In this document: positions 9,959-25,316 of the stretch, one piece after another
Position numbering within the stretch: the stretch's first letter is position 1
Layout: the number at the start of each line of letters is the position of its first letter
NCBI RefSeq assembly: GCF_034366625.1
Contig: NZ_JAXMIH010000015.1
Coordinates: forward strand, 1-64,000
Direction: 5' to 3'
DNA: 64,000 nt
Source: Prosthecobacter sp.
Lineage (GTDB): Bacteria; Verrucomicrobiota; Verrucomicrobiia; Verrucomicrobiales; Verrucomicrobiaceae
Notes under the pieces: generated by a model
The model's database searches: none
What the model was told of the DNA's origin: nothing
What the model saw: only the letters and a program-made list of their open reading frames with translations
Translations under genes and position numbers: made by a program

Positions 9959-10506
9959 TGCGCGATGATGTCGTCCCGTGTCCAGAGGGTTTTGTCGGGA
10001 CCGGCGGAGCGGATTTCCATCTTTTGGGCGGACAACTGATGGAAGAAGTAGGGCGTGCCCCAGGTGTCGATCAATTCGCCCTGGTCATTCAGGCGCACAT
10101 TTTCCTGCGGGAGGTAGCGCACGCCTTGGGGATTGCCGCCGTTGAGGGTTTTGACGATCTCGGCGTTGGTGCCGACGGGATTGCCGCCGAAGCGCTGGCC
10201 AAAGTGGCGGAGATTGAGGGCGATGGAGTCGGCCTCGACGCGCGCGGGATGATCCTCGCGCGGGGGAGGAGGTGTGCGCGACGCTGGAACGACGGGCGGT
10301 GATGCTGCCGGTGGCACCGAAGGTGGCGGCATGACGGGAGCACTCACTTTTTGCGTCACGTCCGGCGATTTCGCCGCAGGGGAAGACGCGGGGGAAATCT
10401 CTGGCGTCGAAGGCGGGGCTGCATCTCGCGGACGCAGCAGGAAGACCGCGACTACGGCGGTGCAGATGATGAGAACTGCCAGCAGAAGCGATTTCTTCAT
10501 CCTCAC
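9955..10506 (-). CDS. Membrane-anchored protein with GspG-like C-terminal domain
   Basis: A 183-residue protein with one N-terminal membrane helix (LLLAVLIICTAVVAVFLL) and a Pro/Ser/Ala-rich linker to about residue 85. Its C-terminal domain resembles the globular end of type II secretion pseudopilin GspG: DTWGTPYFFHQL, IRSAGPDKTLWTRDDI. No prepilin peptidase site with a Phe/Glu start is visible, so it is a GspG-like domain on a plain anchor and not a normal pilin. GTG at 10506 overlaps the stop of the DUF1501 gene; ATG at 10500 is an alternative start. The end overlaps the next gene by four bases. Translational coupling with DUF1501 suggests it works with the DUF1800/DUF1501 pair. Confidence 0.77.
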   Translation of the reverse strand: MRMKKSLLLAVLIICTAVVAVFLLRPRDAAPPSTPEISPASSPAAKSPDVTQKVSAPVMPPPSVPPAASPPVVPASRTPPPPREDHPARVEADSIALNLRHFGQRFGGNPVGTNAEIVKTLNGGNPQGVRYLPQENVRLNDQGELIDTWGTPYFFHQLSAQKMEIRSAGPDKTLWTRDDIIAQ

Positions 10507-11966
10507 GGATTCATGAAGCCGAGATCCGCAGTGGAGAAACGGCCGATGTTTGGGAAGAGCACCGGGATGTCCGAGTCAGGGACGCCAAACCATTTCGCGA
10601 GAGTGGCGGAATGCTGATCGACCGCAAGAGTCGGAATCCAGCGCCCGGTGCCGGTGTCATCGGGGCCGTTGATGGCAAAAGTGGGCAGCTTGCCGAAGGT
10701 GCGGCCGCCTTGGACGGCACCGCCCATGACGAGGTGATGCGCGCCCCAGCCGTGGTCACTGCCCTGGCTGTTGGTAGGGAAGGTGCGGGAGAAATCGCTG
10801 GCGGTGAAGGTGGTGACGTTGCTGGATTCTCCGAGCTGCTCCATGGCGCGCTGGAAGGCAAACATGCACTCGCTGACCTCGTTGAGGAGCGTGGCGTGGC
10901 TGCCGGTGGTGGTGTTGAGGGTCGGCGTGAACGTGACCTGGGAGGTGTGGGTGTCGTAACCGCCGACCGAGCAGAAGAAGATCTGACGATGCATGTTGAA
11001 GGCCGCCGGGCCGCGGGCCTGGATCAAGCGGGCGATCATTTTGAGCTGGTTGCCGAGGGTGGTGACCGGGAAGGGGACGGTCCAGAAGGTGTCGAGGGCG
11101 GTGGGGGCGATGGCGGTGTTGAGCAGATCGCCGGTGTAGATGGCGCGGTCGAGCACCTGGGCGTAGGCCTTGCGCTGGAGGTTGGTGTTGCTGAGGGCGA
11201 GGATGTCACGCATGGCGCGGACGCGGGTGCCAGTGCCGCTCATCAAGTTGCCGCTCAAAGTGACGGCCCCAGTGGTGGAGACATGGTATTGAGAGACCAG
11301 ATTGCCGATTTCCAAGGTGTTCGCGCCATTGAGGGAGACGGACATGGAAAGGCTGCCGCTGGGATTGGCCCAAGCATTGAGGAGATCGGCCACACGCCCG
11401 CCCCAGCCGGTGGCGGGGGGCTGATCGGGGATGGAGGTCTGCCATTGGGTGACCTGATCGCTGTGAGAGAAGAGCTGCGGGGGCTTGGTGCCGGTGGCGC
11501 TGGAAAGGTATTGCGCGCGGGTGATGGGGCGGACCAAGGTGCCGATGTTGAAGACGGTCGCGAGCTTGTCTTCGCCAAAGAGAGTCTGGAGTTCGCCGCA
11601 GTTTGGATGGAAGCCGTAATTGTGCCCGTCCGCGTCCTGATAGGCGGGATCAGCGCCGCCAGGGCCGGTGCGCAAGGTCAGCAGCGAGGACTGTGGCAGC
11701 GCGAGATTGCCGCGGATGGAGGTGTAGTTGTTGAAGGTGGTGGTGTCGGTGGGGACGATCCAGTTGTTGGAGTCATTGCCGCCGGAGAGGAAGAGGCAGA
11801 CGAGCGCCTTGTAGTCGGTGGGAGAGGGGCCGGTGGGTGCCGCCATGACGGAGTTGATCAGTCGCAGGTCGCGGATGGTGCTGCTGTAGGCGGCGGCACC
11901 GAGGCCGAGGCCACCGAGGCTGCGGGCAAAGCTGCGGCGTGTGAGAATGTTGGGGGCGGAATTCAT
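10503..11966 (-). CDS. DUF1501 domain-containing protein, Tat-exported
   Basis: A 487-residue protein starting with a twin-arginine signal (RRSFARSLGGLGLGAAAYSS). It has the DUF1501 hallmarks: KALVCLFLSGGNDSNNWIVP near residue 55, HPNCGELQTLF, FCSVGGYDTHTSQ, and near the end TASDFSRTFPTNSQGSDHG followed by HHLVMGG. These patterns resemble the alkaline phosphatase/sulfatase-like fold, but the activity of DUF1501 proteins is not established. The gene begins six bases after the stop of the giant DUF1800 gene, the usual partner of this family. It is followed, with overlap, by the GspG-like gene. Likely periplasmic or outer-surface. Confidence 0.9.
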   Translation of the reverse strand: MNSAPNILTRRSFARSLGGLGLGAAAYSSTIRDLRLINSVMAAPTGPSPTDYKALVCLFLSGGNDSNNWIVPTDTTTFNNYTSIRGNLALPQSSLLTLRTGPGGADPAYQDADGHNYGFHPNCGELQTLFGEDKLATVFNIGTLVRPITRAQYLSSATGTKPPQLFSHSDQVTQWQTSIPDQPPATGWGGRVADLLNAWANPSGSLSMSVSLNGANTLEIGNLVSQYHVSTTGAVTLSGNLMSGTGTRVRAMRDILALSNTNLQRKAYAQVLDRAIYTGDLLNTAIAPTALDTFWTVPFPVTTLGNQLKMIARLIQARGPAAFNMHRQIFFCSVGGYDTHTSQVTFTPTLNTTTGSHATLLNEVSECMFAFQRAMEQLGESSNVTTFTASDFSRTFPTNSQGSDHGWGAHHLVMGGAVQGGRTFGKLPTFAINGPDDTGTGRWIPTLAVDQHSATLAKWFGVPDSDIPVLFPNIGRFSTADLGFMNP

Positions 11967-11972
11967 GAGCGG

Positions 11973-14900
11973 TCAGCGCTGAATGGTGTAATCGGGACTG
12001 GTGAGAATGAGATGTATGATGGCGCGGAGGCGGTCGCGCTTTTGGGTGTCACTCGGGGTGGTGCTGCCTTGGTTATACTGCACGGCGGAAACGTGCGCGT
12101 TGGTGAGGCCGACGGGAGTGGATGCGGAAGAGCAGGTCACACCGGTGACGGTGAAGGTGCGGGCACCCGTCACTGTGACGGTGCGGGCGACGGTGGCGCT
12201 GTTGAAAGTTCCTGCTGGAGAGAAGGTTCCGGTCGTCACACCGCTGATCAGCACCGTGTCCCCGGTGTTGAGTTTGTGATCGACGGTCGTGACAACGACA
12301 CACGGATTGGTGGCCGGCGTGCCGGGGCTGATCGAGGTGATGGGAGTGGCGACGAAGTTCTTGATCAAATCCTTGGCTTCGGTGGACAACTGGCCCGCCA
12401 TCAAGAGAGTGCTCATCTGGTCGATCAGCGTGGCAAGGTTCTGGTTGTGCGTCCAAGGCACCGAGGTCAAGGCAGGCACGCCGAGGCCGAGATCAGCGAT
12501 GGGCGCGGCGCCCATCCACGGACTGAAGTCGAGCACCAGAGCATTGGTGCCGGTCTTGAAGCTGCTGATGCCGTTGGTGTTGCCTGGATTGAAGAGGCCG
12601 TTGTAGAGGAAATTGGCCTGACGCACGGCGGTGGTTTCCGCCGTGATCTGGAACTCCGGCGTGGAGATGCCCTGGGAGGCGAGGGCGCCGGGGTATTTGT
12701 AGTCTGGCACGAAGAAGTTGAAGACGGTGGGGGAGTTCAGCGGGGTCTGCTCGAGGTCGGTGGTGGTGTTGCCCATGTTGAAGGTGCTGGGCAGGGAGCC
12801 CACGCTGCCGCTGCGTGTCAGCGGCTGGCTGACCAGCGGGAACATCCACATGCCGTTGTCCGCATCGTTGGCACCGCCCTGCGTGGCGATGGCGGCGCTG
12901 GTGAGCACGGTGAAGGTGTTCGAATCGGGCACGGATTCGACGGTGAAAACGCCGTCGGTGGGCTGTGGATTGCCGACGGTGAAGTTCTGGAAGACGGTGT
13001 CTCCGACCTCGAGATGGTGATCCGCGACTCCGCCGGTAATCCAGTCCGTGGTATCAAAGGTGATGAGCTTGTCATTGGGCGAGGCCAGGCCGGAGTTGCT
13101 CACGGTGTAAGAGCCCCGGAAGCCGGCCATGCGGACGCGGCCTGAACGGGCTGCGCCGTCCGTGGGCACGGTGATGGTGAAGGTCGTGCCGCCACCGGTG
13201 GTGCTGGTGGAGGTGACGGCGGTGTAAACACCGTCAGTGATGGCGGTGCCGGCGGGCAGTTCGAAATCCAGCCAGGCGCTGCCGCCGGCTGGCAGCCAGT
13301 GACTGCTCAGAGTGATGGTGGCCGTGGTGGAATTGGCCGCCACAGAGTAGGTGCCGGAAATGCCCGCGTTCGTGGTGCCGTTGGAGGTGCTGATGCCGAC
13401 CCAGCCCTTGGCATTCACATAAAACAGGCTGCTGGTGGGGGCTGGCGTGCTGAGAACGGTGTAGGTATCCGAGTTTGGTGTGGTGTCCCCGGCCTGGAAC
13501 GGTTCGACGGTGCGGGGGAAGCTCAGGTAAACCGTGTTGCCGCCCGCGAGCTTGTTGGCCATCGTGACGGCGATCACATGCGATCCGGTCTGGCTGTAGG
13601 TGCCGCTGGCTCCGTTCAGGCGGAAGGCGCGGGCGGCGTTGGCGACACGCATGACCGGCTCACGCTGCTTGCCGAAGGCGGGCTTGGTGGACTCCGCGCT
13701 GCTGCGCGCCTCGAAATCGAGCAGGATGGCCTTGATGACGGCCTGCATGTCGCCGCGCACGCCGGCACCGTTGTCATTGAACTTCTGGACGACGCGGTAG
13801 AGGTAATCACGCGAGGGATGACTGGTCACGAGGCGCTGGATGAGCTGGCGGCAGATGAAGGGGCCGACATTCGGATGATTGAAGAGCTGGTCATGCGCGA
13901 CATCGAGCTCCTGGGCCGGGAGGTTCTGGTAGGCGGGATCGTTGTAATGCGTGCTGTTGTGGGTGGCGTAAGGGTCCAGTGGCTGGCCGCCCGCAGTGGT
14001 CAGACCGGTCAGAACCTCGTTGTTCAGCAGGCGCTTGGGTCCGGTGAAGTGGCGGGCGGGAACTTCGCGCATCTGACGAATCCAGTTGGTGGCGGCACCG
14101 ATGGAGGTGCGGAAGGCACCATCATAGCCATAGTCCCAACCGGTGAAGACATGGGCAAAACCAACGATCTCCTGCTGGGTGTAGGTGTCGATGGGCGAGT
14201 CCTTGGAATTGAGCACCAGCGTGCCGTCCGGCCACATGCGGAACAGGCCGACGGAGAAGAGCTGCTTGATCTCACGGGCGTAGTTTTCGTTCGGAATGCG
14301 GCCGACGGTGAGATCTGGCTTGTCGTTGCGCAGCATGTCGAGGTAGCGGCCCATGGTTGGCGTGAGCGTCATGTCCTCGAGGATGACACGGAAGTTGCCG
14401 AAGGCATTGGTGGCGAGCCGGTCGTAATAATACGAAATGGCCTCCGCCCGGTTGTCCAGCGGACCTTGGGCGGAGACCACGAGGATTTCGCTCAGCGCGA
14501 AGGCGATGCGTTGACGGAGCTGGTCCGCGCCGGTGATCGAGTTGCGCCACCAGGCGTTGAAGGTGAGGGTTTCGTCAAACTGACCGCCACCGCCGCCATC
14601 TGAGAGCTCACGGGCGAGCACTTCCGGCAATTGAATGGAAGCGGCCTTGGTGAACTGGTCGTCGATCCATGCTTCGTAGCTGGCCAGGGCCTTCAGGGCC
14701 TGAATGTCCGTGATGTTGGCGCCAAACGTGGCCTGGGTGAGGAAGCGCACGGCTCCGGCATTCGTATCATGGTCATCAGTCCATGCGGGAGACGCTGGCG
14801 GGGGTGTGAAGGTGCGGGAACCGTTGGCCAGCGTGTAATTGCCACGGATTTCACCGGCCGGATACAACGCGGTGTGCAGATTGATGTAGGCTTTGCCCTG

Positions 14901-17900
14901 CTTGATGATTTCGATGATGTCCGCTTTTGAAAGCGTGCCCACTGCTTCGATGGTCCAATGGTGGCTGCCATCCGGCTGAGGGCCGTCGTTGGGATTCACC
15001 GGCTCCACGCCGTCGTAAACGATGGCGGAGGCATGGGTCAAATACGGATCAACATGCACATGCCAGTCGGTGAGGTCACCGGTCAGGCCGCTGTAGCTGA
15101 AATTGACGATGGCGGTGTTCTCATCCTCGCTCAGGCGCAGGGTGGAGGTGCCGACACCATTGGTGGCCGCGCCATTTTGGGAAAGCATCGAGGCGACGTA
15201 GAGCGTGCCCGGTGTGGAGCCTGGTGGCGGTGCCACATACGGCGAGAGCACGGTGCCGGGCACGATTTCAGACGGGGTATTGCCGGTCTGACCGGGCTTC
15301 AGCCAGCCCACGGCCAGATTGTCCCCGGCACCGGTTCCCGCCTTGTGCAGGACTTCCAAGTAATAGCGTTTGCCAGCCTCCAGCGCGAGCCAGGGAGACT
15401 TCTGATGCGTTTCTCCGGCGTTGTTCCATTCCTGCGCGGCTGTTCCGGTGCTGACCCACGCACGCTTGACCGAATTGACCGGCTCCGTGTCATTGGAAAT
15501 CCACAACTCTGCCGCATTGCTGGCCGCGATCCAGAAGTAGTAGTTCCCGGTGAGCGGGGCGGTGATGTAACCGTGGATGCGCGCCCCGTAGTCATCGCCA
15601 AAGTCCGTGGGAGCCGTGAGCGAGGTCAGGTTCGTGGTGCCGGTGGGCGCGGTGCTGGTGGGAATCGCCGCCACGCTTGTCCCGCTGATGCCGTTCCAAT
15701 GTTCACGAACGATGGTGCCTGCGGCCTCCTCCACGCGCAGATTGATCAACGAATGGCTGGTGCCTGCGGCGTTCGTGAGGGTGAGCATGATCTGGTAAAG
15801 TCCTGCGGAACCGGGAGGTGGTGTGCCGCTGAGCACACCGCCGTTGTAAGTGAGCCAGTCAGGCAGGCCGCTGACGCTGACCGAGCTGCCGTTGGTTCCC
15901 TTGATGAGGTGAGAAAAGGCACCGCCCACCAGGGCCACAGTGTCTGTTTCAATGGTGGGTGCGGCGGGCGCGGGAGCCGTACTGGCCGGATAGAGCCGCT
16001 CTGACGGGATGATCTGCTTCGGCTGGCTGGGGCTGAACCAGTAGAGCCTGCAGCGTGAGAAACCGCCACTTTCCCAGTAATCGAGCTCGATGTCGTAACG
16101 CACGCCGCCGAGCATCGGGAGGCGGACAAAACGCTCGTTGCCGTTCGAGGACCAGTCTTTGAGGGACTTGTTCACGAAATCAAAGTTCATGCTGCCCGTG
16201 CCGGTGACGTATTCGCCCGCGCCAAAGTTGACCGTGAACGAGGTGGGGGTCACCGCCGTGACCACGCGGTTGAGATTGTCGCTGACGTTGATGCTGCCGC
16301 TGCCGGAGGAGAAGAGACCCGCGCCGAAGTTCACCGTGAAGGTCGTGCTGGTGGCCGCAGTGATTTCATAGGGGAGCTGGCCCAGATTCACACTGCCGCT
16401 GGTCGGGTCCACCTCGACCGAGTCACCGACGGCAAAGCCGCCTGGTGTGACATTCGTGAGGTTCGAGTAATTGATCACCGCATCCCCGGTCACGCCGTCA
16501 TAGGCATAGGTGCTGCCGTTTGCGAGCACAAGATTGCCGGTCGACGGGTCAAGCCGGACGCTTTCTCCGACCACAATGTTGCCGAGTTTCAGAATCGAAT
16601 TCGTATAAGTGACGATCGTGTTGCCTGTGGTGGCGTCGTAGGAATAGGTGCTGCCGCCGCTGTTCGCCGCAGGCAGCATCTTGAGGTCCTGCACCGCACC
16701 GTTGATTTTCAGGGTGCAGCCGTCATCCGCCTGCACCACGAAGGTGTATTCTTCCGAGAACTGCGGCTGCACTTGACCGCTCCAGCGCACCGTGAAGGTG
16801 TCCGCGTTGATCAAGTTCCAATCTGGCGTTCCCGTGCCCCACAGGCCGTTGTTGCTCTCCGTCACCGCCGTGTTCGTGCCGATGCGTCCGGGCGTGTTCG
16901 AGAAAGTCGTATTCGTATAGGTCTTGTTATAGACACCGGTCGTGGTGCTCGTGGAGCGGTTCTCCAGGAAGCCGGTGGCTCCCGCGCTTTGATTTGCAGG
17001 CAGGGTGCTGCCCGTGCTGTTGAGCGTCACGGTGAATGTGTCCGCACTCGGCACAGTCACGACGCTGTAAGTGCCGCTGTAGCCGTTCGGATCGATGGTG
17101 TTCGGATTGAACAAAGTTCCGTTGGTAAAGGCCAGCGCCACTTGGTTTCCGACCGAAAGACCGTGCGCGGTCAGCGTGATCGTTGCTGTCCCGGTCGTCA
17201 CCGGTGACGCGGAGCGTGTGAAGGCATATGTCATCGCCTGCGTGTGCGTGAACTGCTCCGCCTGCGGAATGTTGGCAAAGGTGCCGCCATCACGGCTCCA
17301 TTGCAGCCGGCAACGTGCTTCACTGGTGGTTTCCACATGCTCCACGCGCATTTTGTAGCGCTCCGTAGGTGTTGCGGGCACCACGAGACTGTAGGAGGCG
17401 CTGATCTTGAAGGTGCCGATCGTCTCCGGCGTTGCCGCCCCATCCCAGCCATGCTCCAGAATCTCCTCGCCCGGCAGGTCGAACGTGCCGTTACGATCCA
17501 AGTCGAGCAGCACGCGGGCTTTGTCATCCGCGTCGAGTTGGAAGCGGTACGAGCCCGCCGTCGCCGGACTGAGATACATTTCAAATGTGTCGGAGTAATT
17601 GTCCGGCACATTCGTCGCCGTCGTACCTGCCGCTGCAACCACGCCCACTCCGTTCGGCGTGCCGCCCATCCATTCGTAGTCCACCGTCGGGTCCACACGT
17701 TCGATCACCGCAGGATGAGGGAAGGACTGGATGCTGAAGTTGCAGGTGCTGCTGCTGTTCGTCGGCAGGCCGGCGCCGGAGACGCTCAAAGTGAAATTTG
17801 TTCCCGGTGTGACCGCCGTGATGGTGTAATCGAGATTGTTGTAGGTCGCGCTGTTGAGGTTGCCGCCCGTGAAGGTCACCCGAACCACATGTCCCACCTG

Positions 17901-19061
17901 AACCGCCGGTGTCTTGGTGTACGGAATGACGATGGTCCCAGTATAGTTCGGTGATGTCCCCGATCTCGTGTAAACATAGGTGCCCGCATCGCCAAAATTC
18001 GCCGCATGCGCATAGGTGCCGCTCGAGTGGTCGTAATAGCGTGCCAGCAGCCCCATTCCGCTGGGCGCGGTCGTGTTGCTGATGATCACCGCCGCCTGCT
18101 TTTTGGTCTGATCGATCACCAGCGGGGTCGAAGTACCAGACATCCCGCCGTTCAATGTCACGATGACTGATTCCCCACCCTCCAGGGCAGAGTCGATGCC
18201 TGGACTGATGGCAATCGTCGCCGTCTTGGCTCCGGGTGCAAAATACACGGAACCTGACAAGCCGGTAAAGTCTGTCCCTGCGGTCGCGCTGCCACTCAGC
18301 GTGTAATAAACCCAGGCACCCATCAGACTTTGATTTCGCCGCAGCCTGAGCAGCCCTGCCGGCCCTCCGTCTTCGGAGGCAAATGCCGTCTCCGCCTCCA
18401 CCGTCACCACATCTGGTGTCTGCAACACCTGGGTGATTTCCGCCACGTCCGAGACACCGTCGTCATTGCTGTCCGTGTCTCCTGGCACAAGGCCCAGTTT
18501 GCGCTTCACCCAGTCGGAGACGCCGTCGCCGCTGGAACTCACATCCGAGGTTTCCAGCTTGTAGAACTTCTTCGTGTCCCCAGGCGTCTGGATGGAAATC
18601 GTCGCCGCCGTCTGGTCGGTAGAGGGAATGTATTCCGTGGTGCCGCTGACCGGTGTCTGCAGCGTTTCGGCCGCCCACACCGGCCCGTTTGGTGCATCGG
18701 AACTCAGGACACGGTACTTTTTTCCTGCCTCGATTTTCGTCGTGAACACTACCGCATTGCCGACGATGATCATGTTGCCGATCTTGAAACTGTCCGTCGC
18801 CACGAAAGGGTTTGTCCCGGCGACCGCCTCCAGGCTGTTGATGAAGCCGTCGTTGTCCGTGTCACCGGCAGGATCAATGGCCCAGGCATTGAACTGCTCC
18901 TGCCAGATGTCATCCAGATCGTCAGGGCCATTGGTTTCGCCGACTGGTACTTGTCCGGCGGGCCATTTATTTTGATCAGTGACAGAGGTGGCAGAGACCA
19001 GCGTCTCCAACGAAAAAAGCATCAGCAGGAAGGTTAGAATCCTGAAATGATGGATGGGCAT
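11973..19061 (-). CDS. Giant DUF1800 protein with Calx-beta, three PA14-like, CHRD and inserted beta modules
   Basis: A 2362-residue secreted protein (signal peptide ILTFLLMLFSLETLVSA). Approximate domain order: residues 35-190 a module with DTDNDGFINSLEA; a short NDDGVSDVAEI segment near 195; Calx-beta 214-307; PA14 334-607; an added beta module 612-690; second PA14 711-1024; Ig-like 1039-1110; third PA14 1114-1257; CHRD 1286-1412; DUF1800 1431-2362. DUF1800 hallmarks are IPNENYAREIKQLFSVGLF, FAHVFTGWDYG, PTVFNFFVPDY and the end LTSPDYTIQR. The first two PA14 domains and DUF1800 (two places) are interrupted by short modules with the pattern HGL..G..V.L.F..G...Y.V......TFTV. Most DUF1800 proteins are far shorter (roughly 450-700 aa). 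First gene of a four-gene operon with DUF1501, a GspG-like protein and a metal-domain protein. Function unknown; likely surface-located and ligand-binding. Confidence 0.88.
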   Translation of the reverse strand: MPIHHFRILTFLLMLFSLETLVSATSVTDQNKWPAGQVPVGETNGPDDLDDIWQEQFNAWAIDPAGDTDNDGFINSLEAVAGTNPFVATDSFKIGNMIIVGNAVVFTTKIEAGKKYRVLSSDAPNGPVWAAETLQTPVSGTTEYIPSTDQTAATISIQTPGDTKKFYKLETSDVSSSGDGVSDWVKRKLGLVPGDTDSNDDGVSDVAEITQVLQTPDVVTVEAETAFASEDGGPAGLLRLRRNQSLMGAWVYYTLSGSATAGTDFTGLSGSVYFAPGAKTATIAISPGIDSALEGGESVIVTLNGGMSGTSTPLVIDQTKKQAAVIISNTTAPSGMGLLARYYDHSSGTYAHAANFGDAGTYVYTRSGTSPNYTGTIVIPYTKTPAVQVGHVVRVTFTGGNLNSATYNNLDYTITAVTPGTNFTLSVSGAGLPTNSSSTCNFSIQSFPHPAVIERVDPTVDYEWMGGTPNGVGVVAAAGTTATNVPDNYSDTFEMYLSPATAGSYRFQLDADDKARVLLDLDRNGTFDLPGEEILEHGWDGAATPETIGTFKISASYSLVVPATPTERYKMRVEHVETTSEARCRLQWSRDGGTFANIPQAEQFTHTQAMTYAFTRSASPVTTGTATITLTAHGLSVGNQVALAFTNGTLFNPNTIDPNGYSGTYSVVTVPSADTFTVTLNSTGSTLPANQSAGATGFLENRSTSTTTGVYNKTYTNTTFSNTPGRIGTNTAVTESNNGLWGTGTPDWNLINADTFTVRWSGQVQPQFSEEYTFVVQADDGCTLKINGAVQDLKMLPAANSGGSTYSYDATTGNTIVTYTNSILKLGNIVVGESVRLDPSTGNLVLANGSTYAYDGVTGDAVINYSNLTNVTPGGFAVGDSVEVDPTSGSVNLGQLPYEITAATSTTFTVNFGAGLFSSGSGSINVSDNLNRVVTAVTPTSFTVNFGAGEYVTGTGSMNFDFVNKSLKDWSSNGNERFVRLPMLGGVRYDIELDYWESGGFSRCRLYWFSPSQPKQIIPSERLYPASTAPAPAAPTIETDTVALVGGAFSHLIKGTNGSSVSVSGLPDWLTYNGGVLSGTPPPGSAGLYQIMLTLTNAAGTSHSLINLRVEEAAGTIVREHWNGISGTSVAAIPTSTAPTGTTNLTSLTAPTDFGDDYGARIHGYITAPLTGNYYFWIAASNAAELWISNDTEPVNSVKRAWVSTGTAAQEWNNAGETHQKSPWLALEAGKRYYLEVLHKAGTGAGDNLAVGWLKPGQTGNTPSEIVPGTVLSPYVAPPPGSTPGTLYVASMLSQNGAATNGVGTSTLRLSEDENTAIVNFSYSGLTGDLTDWHVHVDPYLTHASAIVYDGVEPVNPNDGPQPDGSHHWTIEAVGTLSKADIIEIIKQGKAYINLHTALYPAGEIRGNYTLANGSRTFTPPPASPAWTDDHDTNAGAVRFLTQATFGANITDIQALKALASYEAWIDDQFTKAASIQLPEVLARELSDGGGGGQFDETLTFNAWWRNSITGADQLRQRIAFALSEILVVSAQGPLDNRAEAISYYYDRLATNAFGNFRVILEDMTLTPTMGRYLDMLRNDKPDLTVGRIPNENYAREIKQLFSVGLFRMWPDGTLVLNSKDSPIDTYTQQEIVGFAHVFTGWDYGYDGAFRTSIGAATNWIRQMREVPARHFTGPKRLLNNEVLTGLTTAGGQPLDPYATHNSTHYNDPAYQNLPAQELDVAHDQLFNHPNVGPFICRQLIQRLVTSHPSRDYLYRVVQKFNDNGAGVRGDMQAVIKAILLDFEARSSAESTKPAFGKQREPVMRVANAARAFRLNGASGTYSQTGSHVIAVTMANKLAGGNTVYLSFPRTVEPFQAGDTTPNSDTYTVLSTPAPTSSLFYVNAKGWVGISTSNGTTNAGISGTYSVAANSTTATITLSSHWLPAGGSAWLDFELPAGTAITDGVYTAVTSTSTTGGGTTFTITVPTDGAARSGRVRMAGFRGSYTVSNSGLASPNDKLITFDTTDWITGGVADHHLEVGDTVFQNFTVGNPQPTDGVFTVESVPDSNTFTVLTSAAIATQGGANDADNGMWMFPLVSQPLTRSGSVGSLPSTFNMGNTTTDLEQTPLNSPTVFNFFVPDYKYPGALASQGISTPEFQITAETTAVRQANFLYNGLFNPGNTNGISSFKTGTNALVLDFSPWMGAAPIADLGLGVPALTSVPWTHNQNLATLIDQMSTLLMAGQLSTEAKDLIKNFVATPITSISPGTPATNPCVVVTTVDHKLNTGDTVLISGVTTGTFSPAGTFNSATVARTVTVTGARTFTVTGVTCSSASTPVGLTNAHVSAVQYNQGSTTPSDTQKRDRLRAIIHLILTSPDYTIQR

Positions 19062-23100: not shown

Positions 23101-23754
23101 TCAACGACGGCGGCGAAGGACCAGAACACCGAAACCGATCAGGCCGAGCAACGAGCGGCTAGGTTCGGGAACGCCTGCAACAGTGAGTGAGGCATTGCCG
23201 GCGGAAGCGGTATTAGCAGCCCCTGGTCCTGGGCTAAGTTCGGCACCATCTTGAGTGAAAAAGCCCAACAAATAGTTGCTGGTAGGGTCAGCAGGAGTAA
23301 CCCAAGCTTGAGTGCTATCAACGGCGGACCCATTTCTGTAGAAGCCATATTCAGTGCCCGCACCAATGGTCGAAGATGCCGTAGTAAGTGTGGGGAACCA
23401 AAGCAGTGCGAGCGGATCCCCTGTATTCCATCCAGAAACTGAGGAAAGGTCAAGGGCACCTGTTGTGAGATCGAGAACTCCATTGACTCCATAACTTGAA
23501 AGATCCGTTTTAAACAAGACCTTGTCATCACCTCCATTCAAGCTGCTCCCAATCGAGGTCGAAGAACCAGCCAGAATGCTGTCAAATGTGGCGTCAGTGG
23601 TGCTGGAAACAAAAAGAACAAGGCCTGTTTGAATCATGGCGGTTCCACCAGAATTCTTCAACAGGTCGCTTTGCACCAAGAAGGAAATGGATGCGTGCGA
23701 TTGATAGGCTGTAAATACAGTCAACGATAAAACCAAGGCGAACAAACGGTTCAT
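23101..23754 (-). CDS. PEP-CTERM sorting domain protein
   Basis: A 217-residue exported protein with a signal peptide (LFALVLSLTVFTAYQSHAS). Its C-terminus is a textbook PEP-CTERM signal: VPEPSRSLLGLIGFGVLVL followed by four arginines. In known systems an exosortase in the inner membrane recognises the PEP motif and processes the protein for surface attachment, often with exopolysaccharide loci. The middle part is low in cysteine and rich in Ser/Thr/Gly/Leu, with no enzyme motif; it looks like many PEP-CTERM structural proteins. No exosortase gene is in this window. It is probably followed by the terminator at 23041. Confidence 0.9.
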   Translation of the reverse strand: MNRLFALVLSLTVFTAYQSHASISFLVQSDLLKNSGGTAMIQTGLVLFVSSTTDATFDSILAGSSTSIGSSLNGGDDKVLFKTDLSSYGVNGVLDLTTGALDLSSVSGWNTGDPLALLWFPTLTTASSTIGAGTEYGFYRNGSAVDSTQAWVTPADPTSNYLLGFFTQDGAELSPGPGAANTASAGNASLTVAGVPEPSRSLLGLIGFGVLVLRRRR

Positions 23755-23810: not shown

Positions 23811-25001
23811 TCAGGGCACATAAGGTGGTTTCACGGACCACATAGCAGTCACTGGTGCTCCAGTGCTCTTTTTACGAATCACGATTCCTTTGTTCGGTCC
23901 GATTACAACGTCATCGTTAGCAATGGTTCCTGTCACACCCGATTTGCGCCAGCCGGGCCCAAGTCCCGAGGCACCTGTGAAATAATAATAGCTTGTTCCA
24001 GATGCCTTGTTCTTGCCCAAAACCGAATTGTCCCACACCAAAACTTGGTCCTGTCGCAGAGCAATCGAGTGAGATGAGCTACCTGCAAAAGCACCGGACT
24101 CAAAGAGCTTTAGCTGTGACAACGTTAACTCGGTGGCGAAGGGAAGGGCCACAGCGTTGTCTTGATCCACGGAATTGGCGATGGTTCCAAGTGGGGTTGC
24201 CAACTGAGACATCTGTACTGTGCCCGTGAACGTTAAAGAAGTAGCTGTGGCGATATTGTGTCTCACGACAAAAAAAGTGTCCGGCATCAAAACATCATCG
24301 TTGGCAAGGACGGCAGAAACCCCTGCCTTGCGCCACCCGGGCCCAGCGCCAGTAACTCCAGAAAAATAATAATAAGAAACAGGTGAGGCGAGATCAATGC
24401 CTGCGGATGTGTTGTTGGGAATCAAGATTTCTGTTTGGCGAACGGCAATAGAATGGCTGGAGCTTGGATTTACACCCGCTCCCGCTGGGAAAATTGACCC
24501 CAACGTGTCATACGGGATGACTTCCAGCGCAGTGGTTGAGTTGATGGCCGTGGTCAAATCATCGCCCGCTGTGTCCACCGTCAAAGAAGTGGCCGCATTG
24601 GAAACAACCGAGTAGTACATGCCGACCCGGGTGCCGGATTTCAAGAACACGTAATAGCGCTTGGGCTGCGTGCCTGAAACATAGACGAACTGATTGACGG
24701 TCAGGCCGGGGGTTCCCGTGAGGGCAATGACGTTGCTGGTGTCCGTGAAGGTCTCCCCATTGTCCCAGATCTGATTGCTGTTGCCGTCCGTGAACGGTTC
24801 ACCGGCATCGTAGGTGCCATTGGCTGAAAGAGAGGCCGCCGTGCCGACGAACTCGGCCGAGCGCTTGAACGGGATGTATACGTACGAGTCCGAGTTGCCG
24901 GCCAAATCGACCGTGACGAACCCGGCAGGGTCGGTTTCCACTGCCTTGGAGAGGAGTGGCAGCGCGCAGAGAGCGATGAGGAATAAGCGGAGCTTGTTCA
25001 T
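23811..25001 (-). CDS. Exported TIGR02597-like protein
   Basis: A 396-residue protein. ATG at 25001 was chosen because it starts a signal peptide (LRLFLIALCALPLLSKA); the frame is open 17 codons further. The mature start ETDPAGFVTVDLAGNSDSYV and the two repeated blocks (SSHSIAVRQTEILI / SSHSIALRQDQVLV; SYYYFSGVTGAGPGWRKAG / SYYYFTGASGLGPGWRKSG) match the pattern I associate with the TIGR02597 family of Verrucomicrobiota. Its N-terminal third contains a segment of the type found repeatedly in the giant DUF1800 protein (GTPGLTVNQFVYVSG ... YYSVVSNAATSLTVDT). Function unknown. It lies 56 bases upstream of the PEP-CTERM gene on the same strand, so the two may be co-transcribed. Confidence 0.78.
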   Translation of the reverse strand: MNKLRLFLIALCALPLLSKAVETDPAGFVTVDLAGNSDSYVYIPFKRSAEFVGTAASLSANGTYDAGEPFTDGNSNQIWDNGETFTDTSNVIALTGTPGLTVNQFVYVSGTQPKRYYVFLKSGTRVGMYYSVVSNAATSLTVDTAGDDLTTAINSTTALEVIPYDTLGSIFPAGAGVNPSSSHSIAVRQTEILIPNNTSAGIDLASPVSYYYFSGVTGAGPGWRKAGVSAVLANDDVLMPDTFFVVRHNIATATSLTFTGTVQMSQLATPLGTIANSVDQDNAVALPFATELTLSQLKLFESGAFAGSSSHSIALRQDQVLVWDNSVLGKNKASGTSYYYFTGASGLGPGWRKSGVTGTIANDDVVIGPNKGIVIRKKSTGAPVTAMWSVKPPYVP

Positions 25002-25316
25002 GGATTTGATTTTTTCGAGATTAGGAGGTCGGACTTTTATTGTCCAGCCCAAAGTGAGGTTGTGTTCTTCCTGTTTATACCCCGTGGACGGGGAAACGTT
25101 ACATGAAATCTGGAGGTATTTTGCCCGCCTGGCCGCCGGTTCACCCCGGCAACTTCATGATTGCAGGATATGGCTAGTGGCGATACCATCCACCTGTTGT
25201 GACAAGGACCTTCAAAAATTCGCTGTTTGTGCGAATCCAGACGCGTTCCTCACTGACAGCGCCGGATTGTGTGAGCATTCCGTCACTTGAGCACCTGGCC
25301 CATAGCATGCCTTATC
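25002..25316. promoter_or_regulatory. Divergent intergenic region before the secretion operon
   Basis: About 315 bases between the TIGR02597-like gene (minus) and the GspK gene (plus). A short perfect inverted repeat, CCCCGT (25080-25085) and ACGGGG (25088-25093) with a two-base spacer, is the only structure seen; it may be an operator half-site pair or chance. No RNA gene was seen. Confidence 0.35.

Follow-up and report, generated by a model that had tools for sequence, protein, structure and literature searches.

The window analysed here, a stretch of 64,000 nucleotides from a Prosthecobacter sp. genome (contig NZ_JAXMIH010000015.1, positions 1 to 64,000), carries a giant gene whose product has its PA14 and DUF1800 domains interrupted by small, mutually related beta modules. 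The protein belongs to both host families: it reaches 230 bits in two stretches against DUF1800 (PF08811, cut-off 26.1) and aligns with unfilled homologues, and it reaches 101.3 bits in three stretches against PA14 (PF07691, cut-off 24), with a PA14 fold match in the structural model. The module insertions explain why the profile matches to DUF1800 and PA14 are split in giant proteins of this kind. The features of the locus are the following:

11973..19061 (-): giant host protein, 2362 aa; open reading frame with Pfam matches to Calx-beta, PA14 in three stretches, CHRD and DUF1800
18075..18416 (-): Calx-beta domain, aa 216-329 (Pfam, 32 bits, cut-off 27)
17988..18074 (-): PA14-1, first part, aa 330-358 (flank search, alignments)
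17721..17987 (-): module M1 within PA14-1, aa 359-447, profile core 388-424 (profile; empty site in relatives)
17244..17720 (-): PA14-1, second part, aa 448-606 (flank search, alignments)
16944..17243 (-): module M2 in the interval between PA14-1 and PA14-2, aa 607-706, core 627-679 (profile)
16674..16943 (-): PA14-2, first part, aa 707-796 (flank search, alignments)
16158..16673 (-): module block M3 within PA14-2, aa 797-968, cores 827-859, 869-911 and, weak, 917-945 (profile)
15972..16157 (-): PA14-2, last part, aa 969-1030 (flank search; PA14 fold in the model)
15270..15659 (-): PA14-3, without recognised insert, aa 1135-1264 (best Pfam stretch)
14838..15176 (-): CHRD domain, aa 1296-1408 (Pfam)
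13605..14753 (-): DUF1800, N-terminal part, aa 1437-1819 (Pfam; alignments)
12795..13604 (-): three-module block at DUF1800 site 1820, aa 1820-2089, cores 1833-1883, 1915-1964 and 2013-2052 (profile, alignments; mostly beta in the model)
12348..12794 (-): DUF1800, middle part, aa 2090-2238 (alignments)
12063..12347 (-): module M7, FCCH-type, at DUF1800 site 2238, aa 2239-2333, core 2256-2306 (profile, alignments and model; Z 9.8 to the UBA1 FCCH)
11976..12062 (-): DUF1800, C-terminal helix segment, aa 2334-2362 (alignments, model)
10503..11966 (-): DUF1501 protein, downstream neighbour gene (Pfam PF07394, 83.9 bits)

A DUF1501 homologue is present in 75 of the 79 named loci, and the DUF1800-DUF1501 pair appears, in the available part of an earlier report, as a predicted operon of unknown function (PMC5122149). 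By eye, the DUF1501 gene (10503-11966) has an RR-type, Tat-like start and the giant protein a signal-like N-terminus. Elsewhere in the window, a small protein (23101-23754) gives a weak match to PEP-CTERM, at 16.5 bits under the cut-off of 20.7.

An iterated profile detects nine module copies in the giant protein (domain E<=0.01), and a corrected profile seed detects eight, the weak copy at residues 917-945 being lost, which agrees in number and position with the roughly eight related segments described in a sequence-only reading of this DNA. One copy lies in PA14-1, two to three in PA14-2 and one between these two domains, while DUF1800 holds three in a mid-domain loop and one near its C-terminus. 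The modules are whole units of about 75-95 residues around profile cores of about 30-55 aa, and their identity to orthologues is 50% against 72% for the host, being the lower of the two in 20 of 20 orthologues. Raw pairwise similarity among the modules of the giant protein is uneven, many pairs being no better than shuffles. In profile-profile comparison (hhalign) of nine site-based groups, 29 of the 36 pairs have a probability above 90, three lie at 79-85 and four are poor (3.6-52.6), against 0 of 54 pairs above 50 (top value 5.7) for control slices of the host PA14 and Calx-beta, a contrast of which part is selection, because the module groups were gathered by one shared profile and the control slices were not. 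A chance or low-complexity likeness of Thr/Ser-rich beta segments is rejected on the profile-profile controls, despite the uneven raw scores. A related segment had also been proposed in the TIGR02597-like protein at 23811-25052, where the profile finds four fragments, all with negative bit scores, so that this copy is rejected; the TIGR02597 profile itself spans residues 31-411 of this protein.

The AlphaFold2 model of the DUF1800 half (50 sequences; pLDDT 86.4, pTM 0.85) shows a mostly helical host core and mostly beta inserts, with strands at model residues 382-653 and 803-889. M7 (model residues 793-891), to which the structural comparison was mainly confined, has the FCCH barrel fold and superposes on the FCCH of UBA1 with a Z of 9.8 and an rmsd of 2.5 over 79 aligned residues with 23% identity; its matches to the phi92 endosialidase (4hiz, Z 6.9) and to EF-Tu (Z 5.9) are both at levels that the tool describes as common. 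Separate beta modules on a host domain, which the sequence-only reading had proposed to look for, are visible in this half, but the model of the PA14 half is only moderate (pLDDT 76, pTM 0.51). It matches a solved PA14 (6qe7) with a Z of 20.1 and an rmsd of 1.9 over 140 residues aligned within model residues 6-699, a span of 694 residues of which most must therefore lie outside that PA14 fold. The best superposition (window 15882-18074), for which the tool reports the two limits and not the residues aligned inside them, runs from the first strand of PA14-1 into PA14-2 and may reflect either a first-strand swap between two PA14s or a modelling artefact. Several of the PA14-fold structure matches are, by their titles, sugar-bound structures.

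Among known families, the giant protein stays below the cut-off of E1_FCCH (PF16190, the first catalytic-cysteine half-domain of ubiquitin E1; 15.0 bits, cut-off 29.5), which a paralogue in genome G009, L038, exceeds with 46.9 bits, and below that of End_beta_barrel (PF12195; 16.8 bits, cut-off 35); both of these weak matches fall inside the modules. PF16190 matches 10 of 33 module members at E<=0.1 and PF12195 matches 8 of 33, the phi92 endosialidase 4hiz weakly matches the module profile (E 0.0075), and a genome-wide search with PF16190 in the genome of the window gives 0 matches at E<=1e-4. By Pfam and by structure, then, the barrel is FCCH- or endosialidase-barrel-like, and the earlier description of the module as undescribed is not supported: its fold is already known and it is the setting that is unusual. 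The modules share with E1_FCCH the barrel fold, as seen in M7, and with End_beta_barrel, the phage endosialidase barrel, weak profile and structure matches, but here they recur in loops of PA14 and of DUF1800 within an exported-type protein of bacteria. The FCCH of ubiquitin E1 is an inserted domain too, and the endosialidase barrel is part of a phage tail spike.

The DUF1800 sites were compared in an alignment of 38 proteins, where site 1820 is filled in 15 and empty in 23, and in a second one of 87 proteins (74 named loci, the window and 12 others), which leaves out five of the 79 named loci with broken or short frames (L144, L163, L168, L175 and L185). The main insertion sites are three and follow, at about these positions, residues 1820, 2238 and 1710 of the giant protein. 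At site 1820, 61 of the 87 proteins have an insert of 195-600 aa and 26 have 20 aa or fewer; the site is empty in L048, a paralogue within the window's own genome. Module matches occur at this site in 58 of the 61 filled proteins, and the only match in the 26 unfilled ones is the PA14-1 copy of L166. Insert size and the number of module matches both vary, from about 226 aa (up to three, subdivision-3-type) through about 318 (four) and about 378 (five) to 577-600 aa (five to six). Site 2238 holds a module in 26 of the 27 window-type proteins, as well as in L140 (two modules), L159 and L208, and has 29 aa or fewer in the remaining proteins of the 87, L178 excepted; modules at site 1710 are found only in L038, L039, L208 and L209.

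Three of the 61 inserts at site 1820, those of L170 and L178 included, have no module match. The insert of these two proteins looks different, perhaps another beta module, and contains an NGxY-type stretch which we take to resemble phage tail proteins, and L178 (the same as L046/L108, G033) has in addition a 192-aa unrelated-looking domain at site 2238. In one genome, three giant DUF1800 paralogues (L037, L038 and L039) lie within about 25 kb (G009:C1:239000-264000), and the two further ones of these three carry many canonical FCCH-like copies and the extra insertion site 1710. In another, the orthologue L036/L144 (G014:C91) is broken inside DUF1800 into ORFs of 1983 and 611 aa, through a frameshift or an assembly error.

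The PA14 sites were measured by separate flank searches. The PA14-1 site is empty (net -1 aa) in L110, L113 and L130, which are otherwise window-type and have 51-59% identity in the flank after the empty site, and a further 20 window-type proteins have an insert of 76-98 aa there; the count omits two cross-hits, L142 and L161. With weaker matches it is also empty in ten proteins of the subdivision-3-type clade, which are weaker evidence because one PA14 matches the PA14-1 and PA14-2 flanks alike; the second PA14-1 flank has only 18-24% identity in these proteins. The PA14-2 insert measures 92-94 aa in 4 rows, 172-177 in 5 and 249-276 in 12, with nothing between the three classes among these 21 rows, and the M3 block of the window, with 172 aa, belongs to the middle one. 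The site is unfilled (net -3 to 0) in L146, L165 and L166, where PA14-1 and PA14-2 match separately. Rows whose first flank was weak or matched PA14-1 were dropped (L061, L111, L125, L130, L131, L132, L135, L157, L162 and L178), and the statement on empty PA14-2 sites excludes 23 more rows (net -3 to +5 aa), where PA14-1 either was not found or was indistinguishable from PA14-2. Profile matches in PA14-2 number one in L115, two (plus the weak third) in the window and three in L118. As the insert changes in steps of 0, about 93, about 174 and about 265 aa, whole modules come and go at this site. One unit of the block is a canonical FCCH-like copy in L113, L126, L127, L131 and L135, and a type C repeat in L134. 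Since relatives have empty sites at all four intradomain positions, in agreement with the models, the proposal that the modules are loop insertions in otherwise intact host domains is supported, as is their presence in two unrelated hosts, PA14 and DUF1800.

Type C is a second repeat family, seen in L127 (aa 573-634, 754-815 and 832-899) and also in L119, L122, L123, L124, L125, L131, L134 and L135. It occupies another PA14-1 loop (L123, L127), a position within M2 (L127) and positions behind M2. It is abundant in the window's genome (18 matches at E<=1e-4, for instance in ORFs of 8918, 10491 and 11959 aa) and recurs widely in the giant ORFs of these genomes, which the FCCH type does not.

In a tree of the DUF1800 core (87 tips), the proteins filled at site 1820 form a clade with support 1.0, whose first branch consists of L170 and L178, with their insert lacking a module match, and whose remainder has support 0.987; the site is empty in the 25 DUF1800 proteins sampled from elsewhere, same-genome paralogues included. 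Most members of DUF1800 at large do not have these inserts, a result that would otherwise have spoken against the sequence-only reading, but by the tree the insert in the middle of DUF1800 is an ancient trait, close to fixation, of one DUF1800 subclade. L166 is nested within the filled clade (joining L038/L039 with support 0.807), and has 5 aa at site 1820 and a continuous DUF1800 profile match, an apparent clean loss, or natural excision, of the block. M1 is common to window-type and L153/L166-type proteins and missing in nearer relatives on the DUF1800 tree, which yields no order of gain and loss for M1; an exchange of the N-terminal half may also lie behind this distribution. The canonical FCCH-like subtype, a clade picked afterwards as the best fit to its sequence signature, has support 0.963 and 44 tips (34 with the signature), from several lineages and from sites 2238, 1710, 1820 and PA14-2. 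Most of the genomes compared are metagenome bins, so that the single losses in L130 and L166 could in principle be assembly effects, though the frames are open. On the evidence of these alignments and trees, the history of the FCCH-type barrel is one of repeated gain and loss in loops of two unrelated folds.

The modules occur almost exclusively in this gene family. All 7 of the 7 profile matches (E<=0.01) in the genome of the window fall in the giant gene, and a search of 37 related genomes, this one included, returned 97 matches in 15 genomes, 95 of them on contigs matched by the whole giant protein and 2 in other large ORFs. In the 11 genomes reached through the loci, 88 of 92 matches are in this gene or its DUF1800 paralogues (L208-L210 among them), and 4 of 92 in other ORFs (L211-L214). 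In the phylum sample, modules were found in 6 of 145 genomes, the window's own included; in the five others, one or two copies with lower scores lie in ORFs that have no DUF1800 match.

Regarding the mobile-like character that had been proposed, the turnover of modules is clear, but module pairs within a gene (n=225, mean DNA identity 0.661, maximum 0.778) are on average no more alike than codon-shuffled control pairs (n=55, mean 0.665, maximum 0.738), and no trace of recent copying was found at the DNA level; identities of 0.75 or more are reached by 7 of the 225 module pairs and 0 of the 55 shuffled ones. Nor was a foreign composition found, the GC of the modules being close to that of the host (0.619 for modules, 0.610 for host). 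None of the nine Pfam families matching the giant protein at E<=1 is a splicing, nuclease or transposase domain such as an intein, homing or transposable element would bring. The notion of an undescribed mobile module is therefore supported only in part, given the known fold, the lack of a recent-copy trace in the DNA, the absence of an intein or transposase domain and the rejected copy in the TIGR02597-like protein. As for phages, a 291-aa multi-module stretch of L208 gave no tblastn match at E<=1e-3 against 50,697 phage records, PHROG matches are weak (best 1.3e-4), and the giant protein (P0001) has no PHROG match at E<=1.

We consider it likely that FCCH-type barrels have been inserted as whole units into the loops of otherwise intact domains, PA14 and DUF1800, in a single large protein of exported type. 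Comparison and modelling between them carry the separate structure of insert and host, the empty sites, the whole-unit steps, the gains, at least one apparent clean loss and the near-confinement to the family. A short module array would have been captured by one ancestral DUF1800 loop, with further insertion at other permissive loops afterwards, and spread would have proceeded by recombination among the module copies in the gene and in its paralogues, through duplication together with illegitimate or unequal recombination; some canonical FCCH-like copies may have been captured from outside at a later time. The barrels might act as fast-evolving decorations, non-catalytic in themselves, which give a sugar-binding scaffold more exposed surface for binding, spacing or shielding.

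Other histories have to be weighed against this one. The modules could be old integral parts, ancestral to the DUF1800 subfamily, with empty sites arising by loss and no spreading at all, and the site-1820 block common to almost the whole subclade, the loss-like L166 and L130 and the patchy distribution of M1 would fit such a history; we regard it as improbable, since site 1820 is empty in those 25 proteins from outside the clade, modules at site 1710 are seen in just four proteins, and the PA14-2 lengths fall into three step classes. Repeated capture from outside, in which FCCH-like barrels from phage tails or other giant surface genes entered in several independent insertions, is rather unlikely, although several observations favour it: canonical FCCH-like copies across sites and proteins are often closer to each other than to the remaining modules of their own protein, related copies exist elsewhere in the phylum (in further large ORFs and in one of 294 aa, all of them lacking a DUF1800 match), and type C, which occupies the same loops too, is a common genome-wide repeat of giant ORFs. 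Against such capture speak the confinement of FCCH-type copies to this gene in the window's genome, the negative phage search with its weak PHROG matches, and the host-like GC. A self-propagating in-frame element, intein-like or transposon-like, would account for precise in-frame insertion and loss at several sites, but with no splicing, nuclease or transposase family, cores of so few residues and no recent copies we give it very little credence.

Insertion of whole FCCH-type units, our preferred account, can be taken further, if only tentatively: the PA14 and DUF1800 loops may be insertion hot spots, between which one FCCH-type family hops across unrelated folds by recombination, one module each time, within the gene and its paralogues and up to the present. 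Unrelated modules do use the same loops, type C lying beside and once inside an FCCH-type module and L178 having different inserts at both its DUF1800 sites. If this is true, continuing intragenic domain insertion would here be caught in intermediate states.

A literature search found no description of these PA14/DUF1800 inserts. A close parallel is that of the BEAN/HABAS domains of RNA polymerase, homologous small domains which, in the available part of that study, are described as polyphyletically inserted at several sites by an unclear mechanism, with the process waning once early evolution was over (PMC11515920). Both cases place homologous small domains at several sites of a large protein, but here, as far as that part of the study allows the comparison, turnover is visible between related Verrucomicrobiota and involves two unrelated host folds. 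The ECOD catalogue of domain insertions, in which a small domain interrupts a larger one and nested insertions are known, does not contain the words PA14, FCCH or DUF1800 in its main text, and in its available part no repeated gain and loss of one family in the loops of one gene family was found described (PMC13114784).

As a rule, a domain insertion is reconstructed from two end states that lie far back in time. In these related bacteria, the same loops, in two unrelated host folds of one protein, are seen without an insert, with one to three length units and, apparently, emptied once more, which makes insertion-tolerant loops, the copying of modules within a gene and the continued function of the host domains testable. 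The gene family is thus a good natural record of one domain becoming inserted into another.
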